DNA of 11,948 nt, taken from assembly GCA_021166815.1 (NCBI GenBank), contig JAJPEO010000211.1, positions 1 to 11,948 on the forward strand. Direction: 5' to 3'. The position numbers and the translations under genes are program-made. Under the pieces are notes generated by a model. The model made no database searches, was not told the origin of the DNA, and saw only the letters and a list, made by a program, of their open reading frames with translations. Below are positions 1,520 through 6,357 of the stretch, one piece after another (the stretch's first letter is position 1; every line of letters begins with the position of its first letter). The stretch is from Nocardioides sp. (GTDB lineage Bacteria; Actinomycetota; Actinomycetes; Propionibacteriales; Nocardioidaceae).

Positions 1520-2773
1520 ATGAGCGCCGACAAGCAGTTCCAGGACGATTCGGCCCCGTGGGGTCGAGTGGCCGAGGACGGCACCGTCTACGTCCGTACC
1601 GCCGAGGGTGAGCGTCCCGTGGGCCAGTACCCCGAGGGCACCCCCGACGAGGCCCTGGCCTTCTACACCAAGCGTTTCGACGACCTGGCGTTCGAGGTGC
1701 AGCTGCTCGAGCAGCGTGTGGCTGCCGGTCGCCTCGGGCCCGACGAGGCCGCCGCGTCGGTGAAGACGGTGAAGGAGCAGGTCGTCGACGCCAACGCGGT
1801 CGGTGACCTCACCGCGCTTGCCGCCCGCCTCGACGCACTGGCGCCGCTCATCGCCGCCCAGCGCGCGGCCCGCCGCGAGGAGCGCGCCCAGCGCGCCGCG
1901 GAGTCGAAGGCCGACAAGGAGAAGATCGTCAGCGAGGCCGAGCGCCTGGCCGGGAGCAACGACTGGCGCAACGGTGCCAACCGCCTGCGCGACCTGCTCG
2001 AGCGCTGGAAGGCCCTGCCGCGGCTCGACCGCGCGACCGACGACGCCCTGTGGCGTCGCTTCTCCTCCGCGCGCACGACCTACACCCGACGCCGCAAGGC
2101 CCATTTCGCCGAGGAGAACGAGCGGCGCGACAGCGCTCGGAGCATCAAGGAGCGCCTGGTCCAGGAGGCCGAGGCGCTCTCCTCCTCCACCGAGTGGGGC
2201 CCCACGGCCGGGCGCTACCGCGACCTCATGCGTGAGTGGAAGGCCGCCGGCCCGGCGCCGCGCGACATCGACGACCAGCTGTGGCAGCGCTTCCGAGGCG
2301 CCCAGGATGCCTTCTTCGGCGCCCGAGACTCCGCCAACGCCGAGCTCGACAAGGAGTTCGCCGCCAATGCCGAGGTCAAGGAGGCGCTGCTCGCGGAAGC
2401 GGAGGCGCTGCTCCCCGTGGGCGACCTCGAGGCCACCAAGAAGGCCTTCCGCGACATCGCAGAGCGCTGGGACGCCGCCGGCAAGGTGCCCCGCGACCGC
2501 ATCAAGGACCTCGAGGGCCGCATGCGCAAGGTCGAGCAGGCCATCCGGTCGGTCGAGGACGACCACTGGCGCCGCAGCGACCCCGAGAAGTCCGCACGCG
2601 CCGACGACATGGTCTCCAAGCTCGAGGCCGGCATCGCCGAGGAGCAGGCCAAGCTCGACAAGGCCCGCGCCGCCGGCGACGACAAGCGCGTCAAGCAGCT
2701 CGAGGACTCACTGGCCAACAAGCAGGCCTTCCTCGACATGGCCCGCAAGGCCTCGGCCGAGTTCAGCCGCTGA
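1520..2773 (+). CDS. DUF349 repeat coiled-coil protein
   Basis: This 417-residue soluble protein is very rich in Ala, Glu, Arg and Lys. It contains three DUF349-type helical repeats at about residues 132-205, 208-280 and 285-350. The first two carry the signature W-K followed by D-x-x-LW-x-RF (for example ERWKALP then DDALWRRF). The N-terminal 60 residues include a short beta-rich part (WGRVAEDGTVYVRT). The C-terminal 350-417 is a long charged helix, probably a coiled coil. No catalytic motif, signal peptide or membrane segment is visible. The family's molecular role is not established, and I do not assign one. The ATG at 1520 is set by the TACGAT box just upstream and by the absence of another sensible start. 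The gene converges on relA across the nuclease cassette. In M. tuberculosis this plus-strand slot between relA and the glyoxalase-like gene holds ppiB instead. Confidence 0.85.
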   Translation: MSADKQFQDDSAPWGRVAEDGTVYVRTAEGERPVGQYPEGTPDEALAFYTKRFDDLAFEVQLLEQRVAAGRLGPDEAAASVKTVKEQVVDANAVGDLTALAARLDALAPLIAAQRAARREERAQRAAESKADKEKIVSEAERLAGSNDWRNGANRLRDLLERWKALPRLDRATDDALWRRFSSARTTYTRRRKAHFAEENERRDSARSIKERLVQEAEALSSSTEWGPTAGRYRDLMREWKAAGPAPRDIDDQLWQRFRGAQDAFFGARDSANAELDKEFAANAEVKEALLAEAEALLPVGDLEATKKAFRDIAERWDAAGKVPRDRIKDLEGRMRKVEQAIRSVEDDHWRRSDPEKSARADDMVSKLEAGIAEEQAKLDKARAAGDDKRVKQLEDSLANKQAFLDMARKASAEFSR

Positions 2774-2817: not shown

Positions 2818-2820
2818 GGT

Positions 2821-2901
2821 CGGTCGGTTTCCCCGCTTGAGCGGGGAACTGGGAACTGACAGGCCGTAATTTCGGCCAGCAGGTTCCCGGGTCGGCCAGC
2901 A
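2821..2901. repeat. Left inverted repeat of the nuclease cassette
   Basis: Bases 2821-2857 match the reverse complement of 4015-4051 without a mismatch. Bases 2858-2901 match the reverse complement of 3971-4014 at about 32 of 44 positions. It contains a hairpin (2829-2848), a tandem GGGAACT repeat (2844-2857), and the 13-mer TCGGCCAGCAGGT twice (2872-2884 and 2892-2904), starting exactly 20 bp apart. It begins 48 bp after the DUF349 stop. Confidence 0.9.
2829..2848. terminator. Strong hairpin in the left repeat; possible terminator for the DUF349 gene
   Basis: TTCCCCGC and GCGGGGAA form an 8-bp stem around a TTGA loop (9 bp if T-A closes inside). It lies about 55 nt downstream of the DUF349 stop. 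There is no U-tract, which is common for actinobacterial terminators but leaves the role open. The same hairpin faces relA at the other end of the cassette. Confidence 0.4.
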
Positions 2902-2907
2902 GGTCAG

Positions 2908-2922
2908 CGGGCGTCGCGCCCG
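2908..2922 (-). terminator. Hairpin after the nuclease-like gene; possible terminator
   Basis: CGGGCG and CGCCCG arms form a 6-bp stem with a 3-nt loop, starting about 18 nt after the stop codon at 2941. No U-tract follows. A perfect 10-bp palindrome GGCGTACGCC (2929-2938) lies between the stop and this hairpin. Confidence 0.35.
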
Positions 2923-2940
2923 AGAGATGGCGTACGCCGC

Positions 2941-3900
2941 TCAGCCTGCGCGGGTACGCGACTCCAGCAGGCGCTGGACCCGTGCGGCGGTGGCGGACGC
3001 TTTCTCGATGTCTGCCCATGACAGACGGATGCAGACCCAGCCGGTGAGCTGGCAGATGCGCTCCTCCCGTTGCTTTTCGCGCATCAGGAAGTCCTCGAGG
3101 GACTCGCCGCGTCGGCGGAACTGGTGGTACTTCGCCTTGCCGTCGGCCTCGAGGAACACACCGAGAGCGACCCACGCGAAGTCAACCCGGGCGAAGAGCA
3201 TGCCGGATTCGTCGAACACCTCGACCTGGGGCACCGGCGCCGGCAGCCGATGGGCGCGCAGCAGGTGGGCGGCCCGGGTCTCGAGGGCGGACTCGTGCCG
3301 CGGATCGGCAAGGCGCAGCACCACCTCGCACGTCAGCGAGTGCGGCCAGTGCTTGACCTGCTTCCGCGCCGCTGACAGTTCTTCGACTGCCGCGTCGACG
3401 AGTCGGAGCAGTCCGTCGACCGTCACCAACGCAGGCTCCACAGTGGCAATCGTCATCACCTCCAACGCAGCCCGCAGCGGGGCCGTGACGCGTACGCCGT
3501 TGATCGTGCGAACCTCCTGCTCCGGATCGAGCTCGCCACAGTGATGAACCACCCCGGCTTCACGGCGACGGGGCTTGCCGTCGGTTCTGGTCACATGGAC
3601 CTCGTCCAGCGCAATGCCCCAGACAGGCGCACCATGCTCGAGTGCGGCACTGACGTGTGACAGGACGGTGTTGGGGTGTGCGGTCCGCAGCACCGCCCTG
3701 GCCAGCAGCCGATGCCGGTCCTCGGCCGACAGCTCGTCCCACAGCCCGGCGTCGCAGTAGGCACCGTGACGGACGCGGCGCCAGGCACCGGCGCGGAGAT
3801 GGCGCTGGATCGTCTTGTCGTTGTAGCCGTGCTTCAGGAGATCGCGGCGCAGGAAGACCGCGCCGCTGAGGTCCCGCGTCGTCGTCATGCCGCAGAGCAT
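2941..3900 (-). CDS. AbiEi-type winged-helix plus DUF559 (Vsr-like PD-(D/E)XK) nuclease-like protein
   Basis: This protein has 319 residues. Residues about 15-52 (FLRRDLLKHGY, then RRVRHGAY) look like the winged-helix domain found at the N-terminus of AbiEi-type antitoxins. A middle region (about 75-170) has the family's SHVSAALEHGAP and VHVTR blocks. The C-terminal part resembles DUF559, a Vsr-related nuclease fold: E203 or E207, D240 (RVDFAW), E251 and D253 (FLEADGKAKYH), with K255 or K257, and a basic helix after 270. The acidic-Lys pattern of PD-(D/E)XK enzymes looks complete, so it may be an active DNA nuclease. Its substrate is unknown. No partner toxin or methylase gene is adjacent. 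The ATG at 3898-3900 lacks a clear Shine-Dalgarno, and an ATG four codons later (MTTTRDL) is an equally possible start. The gene stands alone inside inverted repeats, which suggests horizontal acquisition. Confidence 0.8.
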   Translation of the reverse strand: MLCGMTTTRDLSGAVFLRRDLLKHGYNDKTIQRHLRAGAWRRVRHGAYCDAGLWDELSAEDRHRLLARAVLRTAHPNTVLSHVSAALEHGAPVWGIALDEVHVTRTDGKPRRREAGVVHHCGELDPEQEVRTINGVRVTAPLRAALEVMTIATVEPALVTVDGLLRLVDAAVEELSAARKQVKHWPHSLTCEVVLRLADPRHESALETRAAHLLRAHRLPAPVPQVEVFDESGMLFARVDFAWVALGVFLEADGKAKYHQFRRRGESLEDFLMREKQREERICQLTGWVCIRLSWADIEKASATAARVQRLLESRTRAG

Positions 3901-3939
3901 TTCCCGCGAGGAGGTGGCGTACTCCTGCGTTTAGCCATC

Positions 3940-3948
3940 TGTGGACAA
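3940..3948 (-). promoter_or_regulatory. Perfect DnaA-box-like 9-mer (TTGTCCACA) upstream of the nuclease-like gene
   Basis: On the minus strand the sequence is TTGTCCACA, the preferred DnaA box of Streptomyces and mycobacteria. It lies 40 bp upstream of the ATG at 3900 and inside the cassette. A single box does not make an origin. It could tie expression or mobility to DnaA, or serve by chance as a -35-like region. The rest of 3901-3970 holds no gene that I can support. Confidence 0.45.
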
Positions 3949-3970
3949 CCCGCACCAGCCACGTACGGCT

Positions 3971-4051
3971 TGCTGGCCGAAGTTGCCACTTGCAGGCCGA
4001 AATTTCGGCCAGCAAGTTCCCAGTTCCCCGCTCAAGCGGGGAAACCGACCG
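3971..4051. repeat. Right inverted repeat of the nuclease cassette
   Basis: This is the mirror of 2821-2901, identical over 4015-4051. It contains the perfect 16-bp palindrome GGCCGAAATTTCGGCC (3995-4010), the near-identical half-sites TTGCTGGCCGAA (3970-3981) and TTGCAGGCCGAA (3990-4001) starting 20 bp apart, and tandem AGTTCCC (4015-4028). It ends 20 bp before the relA stop codon. Confidence 0.9.
4024..4043. terminator. Strong hairpin in the right repeat; possible relA terminator
   Basis: This is the same stem as at 2829-2848, with a TCAA loop on the plus strand. In the relA transcript it comes 28 nt after the stop codon. No U-tract follows. Its shape and sequence resemble the stem of type I-E CRISPR repeats. 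Confidence 0.4.
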
Positions 4052-4054
4052 GGA

Positions 4055-4071: not shown

Positions 4072-6357
4072 TCAGTTGGTGACGCGGTAGGCGTCGAAGA
4101 CGCCGGGGACGCCGCGGACGGCGCGCAGCACGTTGTCGAGGTGGGCGGCGTCGGCCATCTCGAAGGTGAAGCGACTCTTGGCGACCCGGTCGCGAGTGGT
4201 CGTGAGGGTCGCGCTCAGGATGTTCACGTGGCCGTCGGACAGCGCCATGGTGATGTCGGAGAGCAGGCGCGCGCGGTCGAGTGCCTCCACCTGGATGTTG
4301 ACCAGGAACGTCGACTGCGAGGTCGGCGCCCACTCCACCTCGAGGACACGCTCGGGCTGCCCGAGCAGGCTCTCGGCGTTGGTGCAGTCGCGGCGGTGGA
4401 CCGACACTCCCCCGCCCTTGGTGACGAAACCGAGGATCGGGTCGCCCGGCACCGGCGTGCAGCACTTGGCGAGCTTGACCCAGACGTCGTCGACGCCCTT
4501 GACCACCACGCCGGAGTCGGTGGCGGTCCGGCTCGCGGGACGGCGACGGGAGCCGGTGATGGTGACGGCCTCGGCCAGGTCCTCGGCCGCGCCGTCCTGG
4601 CCACCGTGCAGGTCGATGACGCGGCGTACGACGGCCTGCGCGCTGAGGTTGCCCTCGCCCACCGCGGCGTACAGGGCCGAGACGTCGAGGTGGTTGAAGT
4701 GCTCGGCGACGGAGGCGAGGATGTCGTGCGACATCAGGCGCTTGAGGGGCAGGCCCTCCTTGCGCATCAGCTTGGCGATCTGCTCCTTGCCGCGCTCGAT
4801 GGCCTCTTCGCGCCGCTCCTTGGTGAACCACTGGCGGATCTTCGACTTCGCCCGGGGTGACTGGACGAAGTTGAGCCAGTCGCGCGAGGGCCCGGCGGTC
4901 GCGGCCTTGGAGGTGAACACCTCGACCACGTCGCCGTTGTCGAGGGATGACTCCAGGGGCACCAGGCGGCCGTTGACCCGGGCGCCGATGGTGTGGTGCC
5001 CGACCTCGGTGTGGACGGCGTAGGCGAAGTCGACCGGGGTCGACCCGCCCGGCAGGGGGATGACGTCGCCGCGCGGGGTGAAGACGTAGACCTGCGCCTG
5101 GTTCATCTCGAAGCGCAGCGACTCCAGGAACTCCCCCGGGTCCTCGACCTCGCTCTGCCAGTCGAGGAGCTGGCGCAGCCAGCGCATGTCCTCCTTGTCG
5201 GCCATGCGGTCGGTGTCGGCCCCGGTGCGCCCGTCCTCCTTGTACTTCCAGTGCGCCGCGACGCCGTACTCGGCTCGTCGGTGCTGGGCGAAGGTACGGA
5301 TCTGGACCTCCACCGCCTTGCCCTGCGGGCCGATCACCGTCGTGTGCAGCGACTGGTACATGTTGAACTTCGGCATCGCGACGTAGTCCTTGAACCGGCC
5401 GAGCACCGGGTTCCAGCGCGCGTGGATGACGCCGAGCGCGCTGTAGCACTCACGGTCCTCCTCGACGAGGATGCGGATGCCGACCAGGTCGTAGATGTCG
5501 GAGAACTCACGACCGCCCACGATCATCTTCTGGTAGATCGAGTAGTAGTGCTTCGGGCGGCCGGTCACCTTGGCCCGGATGCGTGCGGCCTTGAGGTCGT
5601 GCTGGACCTCGGCGATGACCTCGGCCAGGAACTGGTCTCGCGACGGCGCCCGCTCGGCGACCATGCGCACGATCTCGTCGTAGATCTTGGGGTGCAGCGT
5701 CGCGAAGGCAAGGTCCTCCAGCTCCCACTTGAGCGTGTTCATGCCCAGGCGGTGCGCCAGCGGTGCATAGATGTCGAGCGTCTCGCGGGCCTTGCGCTCC
5801 TGGGTCTCGGCCTTGAGGTACCGCAGGGTGCGCATGTTGTGCAGCCGGTCGGCGAGCTTGATGACGAGGACCCGGATGTCGCGGGCCATCGCGACGATCA
5901 TCTTGCGGATCGTCTCGGCCTGGGCGGAGTCGCCGTACTGGACCTTGTCGAGCTTGGTGACGCCATCGACGAGCCCGGCGACCTCGTCGCCGAAGTCGGC
6001 CCGCAGCTCCTCGAGGCCGTACGGCGTGTCCTCGACGGTGTCGTGCAACAGGGCGGCGACGAGCGTCGGCTCGGTCATGCCGATGTCGGCCAGGATCGTG
6101 GTGACCGCGAGCGGGTGGGTGATGTAGGGGTCGCCGCTCTTGCGCATCTGCGTTGCGTGCAGGCGCTCGGCCACGTCGTAGGCCCGCTCGAGCAGGGCCA
6201 GGTCGGCCTTGGGGTGGTTGGCGCGCACCGCGCGGAACAGCGGCTCGAGGACGGGGTTGGACGCGGGCGGCTTGGTGCCGATGCGCGCCAGGCGGGCCCG
6301 CATGCTCCGGGCGGAGGCCGGCACGGTCGGCCGTACGGGAGCGCGATCCTCAGCCAT
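4072..6357 (-). CDS. relA: Bifunctional (p)ppGpp synthetase/hydrolase (RelA/SpoT, Rel family)
   Basis: This 761-residue Rel makes (p)ppGpp from GTP or GDP and ATP under starvation and degrades it again. An HD hydrolase domain (about 60-200) keeps the metal motif HDTVED (105-110), so hydrolysis should be active. The synthetase domain (about 265-370) shows [25 protein letters not shown] and RFKDYVA followed by YQSLHTT. A TGS domain (about 422-483, [18 protein letters not shown]) follows. A conserved Cys region ([13 protein letters not shown], about 628-640) and a C-terminal ACT domain (about 684-760) sense the ribosome. The length is typical of actinobacterial Rel. The ATG at 6357 lies 6 nt after a TAGACT -10 box and has no Shine-Dalgarno, suggesting a leaderless transcript. 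It follows apt, as in M. tuberculosis, with a 56-bp gap. Confidence 0.97.

Follow-up and report, generated by a model that had tools for sequence, protein, structure and literature searches.

RAYT genes have been reported to lie always between two REP sequences in inverted orientation, to co-vary with these REPs and to correlate with REP abundance (PMC2817692), while REP doublets that form hairpins are described as REPINs (PMC3116915). TIRtrons carry tyrosine transposases (PMC3733652). The homing endonuclease I-Bth0305I is described as phage-derived and as dimerizing on a target almost 60 bp long (PMC3943268). Here we describe a chromosomal cassette of Nocardioides sp. in which a single gene is framed by two inverted palindromic arms. 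It lies in a stretch of 11,948 nucleotides (contig JAJPEO010000211.1, our contig C284), referred to below as the window, which belongs to a host assembly of 2.83 Mb in 400 contigs. Its nearest named relatives come almost entirely from Nocardioides and Marmoricola, which points to Nocardioides as the genus. A preliminary description of this DNA had proposed that the nuclease-like product of the gene recognizes the palindromes and spreads or maintains them, as RAYTs do with REPs. The reading that we favor, and to which we give about even credence, is that the cassette belongs to a widespread family of actinobacterial single-gene elements, whose protein would recognize its own palindromes and whose cleavage would let these be copied into intergenic gaps.

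Architecture of the cassette and its protein

The cassette and its borders comprise the following features:

1520 to 2773, plus strand: DUF349 gene that borders the convergent gap on the left (domain scan)
2821 to 2901, plus strand: left inverted-repeat arm, which agrees with the right arm over all of its outer 37 bp; single-strand fold z -4.39
2829 to 2848, plus strand: left-arm outer hairpin with an 8-bp stem and a 4-nt loop
2862 to 2877, plus strand: inner palindrome of the left arm, read from the sequence and the fold
2941 to 3900, minus strand: cassette gene, 319 aa, encoding a predicted AbiEi-type DNA-binding protein with a C-terminal Vsr-like nuclease domain
2950 to 3291, minus strand: predicted nuclease domain like I-Bth0305I and Vsr, residues 204-317
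3304 to 3864, minus strand: predicted AbiEi-antitoxin-like part, residues 13-199 (winged helix and second domain)
3971 to 4051, minus strand: right inverted-repeat arm; single-strand fold z -4.32
3988 to 4017, minus strand: inner hairpin of the right arm (from the fold)
4024 to 4043, minus strand: outer hairpin of the right arm (from the fold)
4072 to 6357, minus strand: relA/spoT gene (RelA/SpoT), right border of the convergent gap (domain scan)

The arms are 81 nt long, 85% complementary and 1069 nt apart, and they were the longest among the 146 inverted pairs found in the window. They match at 69 of the 81 positions, and the run of identity covers exactly 37 bp at the outer end and continues no further outward, in agreement with the preliminary description. 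Their 23-bp core occurred twice in the window, compared to a mean of 0.00 in 200 shuffles when up to three mismatches were accepted. Within each arm, an outer hairpin is accompanied by an inner palindrome, and as a single strand each arm folded better than all 200 of its shuffles. The ranking among the 146 pairs, the shuffles and the same-locus framing control described below together rule out a chance origin of the repeats. The 319-aa ORF is the sole gene between the arms; the other ORFs listed there were listed mechanically and overlap it in other frames. The cassette thereby occupies the gap between the convergent DUF349 and relA genes, confirming the initial view of one enclosed gene between two convergent core genes. 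The gene between the arms had no transposase match; the cassette had been said to lack a transposase, which we can affirm, and an insertion sequence was rejected on this ground.

The same description had assigned the protein an AbiEi-type DNA-binding domain combined with a DUF559 PD-(D/E)XK domain. The AbiEi part stood: while the score of the window protein against Pfam AbiEi_4 fell just under the cut-off (24.4 versus 25 bits), this part was backed by PADLOC profiles (best E 3.4e-12) and by the structure model. Assignment to DUF559 by Pfam was rejected, as the window protein had no match to this family at E ≤ 1 and just one of 29 members had one (E 0.0043). At E ≤ 0.01, the Pfam scan across the 29 members returned AbiEi_4 (23 members), DUF559 (1) and MTES_1575 (1), and nothing else. 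A nuclease domain as such was nevertheless supported by the structure model, in which an AbiEi antitoxin is joined to a domain of the Vsr/I-Bth0305I homing-endonuclease type and which has restriction enzymes and Vsr among its fold neighbors. It was also supported by the invariance of E207, D240, E251, D253 and K257 in 29 aligned sequences (window-protein numbering, as identified in the alignment). Based on the model, the cassette protein is thus predicted to be an AbiEi DNA-binding part fused to a nuclease domain of the Vsr/homing-endonuclease type. In the divergent paralogues L080, L085, C79, L078 and C295, the residue at the D253 position differs, as judged by eye from the alignment. No HUH/Y1 domain of the Transposase_17 type appeared in the Pfam scan of the 29 members or among the structure-model matches. 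Three proteins submitted to NCBIfam were placed in no family, and a profile search of PDB sequences returned no relative and one unrelated weak match.

An AbiEi-type fold with restriction enzymes and Vsr among its neighbors could also belong to a conflict or defense system, in which a toxin- or restriction-like nuclease is controlled by binding to its own palindromes and renders the cassette addictive or protective. We regard this as improbable, since no partner gene lies inside the arms, neither neighbor is an AbiEii toxin, and tens of dispersed copies would be left unexplained. In addition, the window protein had no relative in collections of plasmids, phages and viral contigs at the sensitivity used; in the viral contigs, seven pattern stretches were found, none of which was confirmed. 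The lack of matches in these collections also leaves a phage or plasmid origin unsupported. An AbiE toxin-antitoxin pair was rejected because no AbiEii nucleotidyltransferase toxin adjoins the window gene, the arms enclosing one gene and the neighbors being DUF349 and RelA.

Framing, dispersal and abundance of the repeats

To score framing, the upstream 1500 bp of each gene were aligned to its downstream 1500 bp in reverse-complemented form. The first set comprised 32 loci, three from the host genome and 29 from relatives. Scores of at least 50 were obtained for 28 of the 30 valid loci (null median 28, 95% 36), where the cross-pair null includes four scores above 700 from shared flanks and where L063 and L069 were excluded as contig ends at which one palindrome was matched to itself (raw count 30 of 32). 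A second set of 40 loci, taken from well-assembled genomes and overlapping in part with the first in its genes, had 28 with scores of at least 40 (null 95% 35, the null including a single score of 1329 and three between 41 and 47). The 66 named loci, nearly all from Nocardioides or Marmoricola, gave scores of at least 40 in 64 cases and of at least 50 in 63 (null median 30, 95% 40, top values up to 65). About 5% of the 325 cross pairs in this null reached 40, the top twelve scoring 42 to 65, possibly because a CCCCGG-type core is common to arms from different loci. With flanks of 500 bp, framing at 40 or above was seen in 63 of the 66 loci, compared to 1 of 64 control segments of equal length taken 1.5-2 kb away at the same loci.

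Furthermore, the framing extended across the phylum. A family profile search at E ≤ 1e-20 detected members in 74 of 296 genomes and 61 of 199 genera, own genome included. When 40 loci from other genera (two of them in the same family) were scored, 23 reached at least 40 (null 99% 35, maximum 40), a count that includes the low-complexity sequence of L293, and 17 relatives remained below 40. Most genes of the family are framed by an inverted palindromic pair of their own, and dispersed solo copies were found too, where looked for. The preliminary description had asked whether other DUF559/AbiEi genes carry the same ends; other genes of the family have ends of their own, the repeats differing from gene to gene. 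At the divergent paralogues L080, L085, L089, L095, L098, L101 and L102, repeat arrays in inverted orientation, partly tandem, replace the single palindromes within ~500 bp on either side.

A search of the host genome with the left arm resulted in 10 matches and showed that the repeat is dispersed. Beyond the two arms, matches lay on contigs C253, C156 and C358 and at the edge of C335. The copies on C253, C156 and C358 are gene-free palindromes of 97-104 bp with the outer hairpin sequence at both ends, and these three complete solo copies have single-strand fold z values of -8 to -12. No relative was found by protein search on C253, C156, C358 or C335. Relatives are encoded at three further places in the genome, on C231 (53% identical), C79 (29%) and C295. 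The C231 and C79 paralogues are each framed by inverted repeats that differ in sequence from the window repeat; the C79 repeat gave 25 matches on 12 contigs, 11 of these other than C79, and the C231 repeat was matched on six further contigs. The C295 relative is located at a contig end and has short direct repeats on its far side. All four families that were searched genome-wide proved to be dispersed. The repeat units measure 75-104 bp here, and several families have more than one hairpin.

Repeat abundance was compared between genomes that have the cognate gene and genomes that lack it. When the 80-bp repeat of one gene of genome G012 served as the query, three genomes that encode a close homologue yielded 101, 91 and 38 matches, and four genomes without one yielded 0 or 1. 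As a control, a 201-bp flank from this locus was matched once each in four of the seven genomes and not at all in three. Among 59 genomes of the genus, 6 have a homologue of at least 65%; at least 17 matches of one repeat family were counted in 5 of these, versus 2 of the 53 others; these counts are lower bounds, at most 15 candidates having been scored per genome, and they refer to matches and not to places. The association in this family had a Fisher p of 2.4e-5, with thresholds picked after seeing the data and kinship uncorrected. G044 (37 matches, best homologue 49%) and G059 (25 matches, best homologue 30%) carry orphan repeats of this family that are possibly a remnant after gene loss, and G057 has a 65% homologue yet 2 matches. 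In 200 kb of G012, three of four native families had copies beyond their own gene, the matches of L078 being its own arms only, and 1 of 22 families foreign to G012 and G022 was matched, at places already holding native repeats. A 200-kb stretch of G022 had matches for four of six native families and for 3 of 22 foreign ones, the latter again at native copies. Both stretches were picked around known copies of one family, which inflates the count of that family. For the one family compared across the 59 genomes, repeat abundance goes with the cognate gene.

Conceivably, an unrelated transposase could spread the palindromes in trans, as for MITEs, the nuclease gene then being a passenger between two copies. 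Short inverted hairpin-forming elements in intergenic gaps are indeed MITE-like. However, one protein family is repeatedly framed while the repeats vary from gene to gene (in a search that started from the gene), and the abundance of one repeat family goes with the nuclease gene. A MITE origin is therefore very improbable in our judgment.

The position of the repeats relative to genes bears on whether they serve as regulatory sites. In 63 loci, the upstream arm ended a median of 120 bp before the aligned gene start, and the second arm was placed a median of 33 bp after the aligned gene end. Solo copies of one family occupied 24 gaps, of which 14 were convergent, 9 tandem and 1 divergent, whereas 49 of 189 control gaps were convergent and 44 divergent, the orientation being scored by a home-made ORF and GC3 rule. 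The set of 24 gaps equals the 30 fetched minus six, namely three gene arms, one element fetched twice and two weak single matches. All 30 together gave 15 convergent, 11 tandem and 3 divergent gaps and one position inside an ORF (p 0.008 for convergent, 0.15 for divergent). The copies in the own genome were distributed over 6 convergent, 11 tandem and 1 divergent gap, and one more sits at the edge of a contig. A repressor or chromosome-binding protein of the AbiEi type, for which the palindromes are binding sites at its own promoter and along the chromosome and whose nuclease-like domain does not spread them, would account for the upstream arm. Both AbiEi and Rv2827c are reported to bind inverted repeats of 23 bp that precede the gene encoding them (PMC7319586), and the copies common to G012 and G022 are conserved. 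Such a regulator would not readily account for the second arm, which has no obvious operator role, for the preference of solo copies for convergent gaps over divergent promoter-type ones, or for repeated units that are whole stretches of 75-100 bp and not short operators. In addition, the nuclease residues are invariant in the 29 aligned sequences, though some divergent paralogues change the D253 position. On balance, we consider a purely regulatory role unlikely.

Shared sites and inheritance of gene and arms

The preliminary description had pointed to the DUF349-relA junction in relatives as informative. The C-terminal part of relA was found in 39 of 40 genomes of the genus, and of the 30 loci of the genus that were fetched, 27 have DUF349 no more than 1.5 kb from relA, one of them in the other orientation. 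The nuclease gene was absent from the relA-DUF349 gap in 25 of these 27 loci and was present there in 2 of the 30, namely in the window and in G002. As a tree node with a support of 1.0 separates the proteins of the window and of G002 and their arms differ, this looks like two arrivals at one gap. The gap was ~65 bp or less, and hence empty, in 8 of the 30 loci; among the fetched loci of the genus, no alignable empty site for setting insertion boundaries or a target duplication was found there. Inspection by eye revealed that the gap holds arrays of the repeat type framing another G012 gene in G012 and G007, and the repeat type framing another G022 gene in G022. A second gap contains one repeat type in G012 and another in G022. 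At L181 (G046), L183 (G010) and L187 (G020), the relA-DUF349 gap is taken up by other apparent genes, collagen-like or secreted-looking by eye, so that it has the appearance of a landing gap. Directly beside a solo palindrome, short tandem arrays of the CAGCGGCGTT type were seen in each of two species (L164:10150-10250 and L165:11860-12240).

For a same-site comparison, we used the 63 loci with arms, 51 of which belong to seven clusters of sites common to species, with both flanks homologous. These provided 276 same-site pairs, which are non-independent and of which 212 come from one cluster of 24 loci. The left and right arms of one locus were 0.82 alike, a value favored by the exclusion of loci without detectable arms (63 of 66 kept), compared to 0.58 for orthologous arms and 0.86 for the flanks; the baselines were 0.50 for shuffled arms and 0.53 for arms of different loci. 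In 275 of the 276 pairs, and also in the average of every one of the seven clusters, arms were more alike within a locus than between species. This showed that the two arms of a shared site change together between species. Protein identity was correlated with arm similarity (Mantel 0.33; maximum of 2000 permutations 0.13), a correlation that is expected from common descent even without functional co-evolution because both reside on one cassette.

A comparison of solo copies with the arms from the same genome gave a mixed picture. The solo copies of G012 were 0.94 and 0.92 alike to the arms of G012 and 0.83 and 0.80 to those of G017, while the solo copies of G017 were 0.88 and 0.81 alike to their own arms and 0.86 and 0.85 to those of G012. 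On average, the G017 copies were thus no nearer to the arms of their own gene than to those of G012; the copies of both genomes had been found with a G012 query. In the sister species G012 and G022, eight orthologous copies (six solo copies and two gene arms) were on average 0.93 alike, and different copies inside one genome were 0.85 alike. Since orthologous copies are more alike than copies within a genome, the copies of these two species are mostly inherited, and recent activity in them is low.

The conservation of orthologous copies would also be compatible with a passive origin, in which ordinary gene conversion would have preserved the likeness of two old inverted repeats, the arms, while the solo copies would be old duplications. 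At one place, G012 has 3.3 kb between two direct repeat copies (L155:2232-5665) where G022 has a single copy (L156:18446-18525), a difference that is probably due to recombination between the copies, and such recombination is likewise compatible with passive change. However, conversion from arm to arm cannot make tens of copies mainly in genomes that carry the gene, nor does conversion explain a separate repeat for each paralogue. We therefore rate this the least probable of the explanations considered. At shared sites the gene is mostly inherited vertically and itself rarely moves, which, like the inherited copies of the two sister species and the repeats without a close homologue in G044 and G059, weighs against the reading that we favor. 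Repeats unique to the locus, the gene at the same site in all relatives and vertical divergence only would have spoken against the initial proposal; the window locus does not show this pattern, although elsewhere the gene is mostly vertical.

Proposed mechanism and relation to known systems

Recognition, cleavage and copying, which we infer from these observations, could proceed as follows. The AbiEi part would read the cognate palindrome, either as a duplex or as a hairpin extruded during replication. The nuclease domain would then nick or cut beside the palindrome or at a receptive intergenic site, and the recombination or repair machinery of the cell would copy the palindrome into the broken site or renew an existing one. 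Over time, palindrome and protein would change together, as REPs and RAYTs do, while the gene itself would move rarely. As to the likeness to RAYTs and REPs put forward at the outset, it is favored by the dispersal of the repeat, the gap without the gene in relatives, the ends proper to each gene and the abundance in one family, whereas the mostly vertical inheritance of the gene elsewhere weighs against it. More specifically, we tentatively propose, at somewhat less than even credence, a REP-like propagation system that would have arisen independently of transposases. In this system an AbiEi-guided protein of the homing-endonuclease type would spread and renew its own palindromes in actinobacterial chromosomes, each paralogue having its enzyme-palindrome pair and several such pairs coexisting in a genome. 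In the open-access literature, no description of an AbiEi/Vsr-like enzyme paired with its own palindromes was found among the matches listed.

If this proposal is correct, dispersed bacterial palindromes need not come from HUH transposases, and a nuclease of the repair or homing type can own and renew them. It would also provide a role for many orphan genes across Actinomycetota that are named AbiEi antitoxin, very-short-patch-repair endonuclease or hypothetical protein, and it could account for some of the variable palindromes in actinobacterial intergenic gaps. Moreover, many natural enzyme-target pairs would become available for reading DNA recognition by AbiEi-type domains.

With regard to known systems, the cassette shares the AbiEi fold with the AbiEi antitoxin and Rv2827c of type IV toxin-antitoxin systems, but it differs from type IV AbiE by having no adjacent AbiEii toxin, an added nuclease domain, and framing and dispersed repeats. 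According to the model, the fold of the catalytic domain is common to the cassette protein and the EDxHD enzyme I-Bth0305I. The latter is described as phage-derived, whereas the cassette gene is chromosomal and comes with an AbiEi DNA-binding part and palindromic ends. From the Vsr endonuclease, the cassette protein differs by the AbiEi-like part ahead of the nuclease domain. Short intergenic repeats and a framed gene are features in common with MITEs and TIRtrons, but no transposase is present between the arms. The closest likeness in architecture is to RAYT/TnpA-REP systems (REPtrons), which, according to PMC2817692 and PMC8266576, also have a single gene between two inverted palindromic units and dispersed gene-free copies, and in which gene and repeat co-vary, abundance follows the gene and the gene is seldom mobile. 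RAYTs, however, are HUH/Y1 transposases related to IS200/IS605, whereas the cassette protein is predicted to combine an AbiEi part with a Vsr-like fold and has no transposase domain match. Although the architecture alone would make the cassette a REPtron variant, we regard it as a kind apart, because the fold of its enzyme is unrelated and the matches listed from the open-access literature described no such pairing. The framing and dispersed repeats of the cassette gene, and the different repeats that accompany many related genes in the Actinomycetota, suggest an enzyme-and-repeat partnership of a previously undescribed kind.
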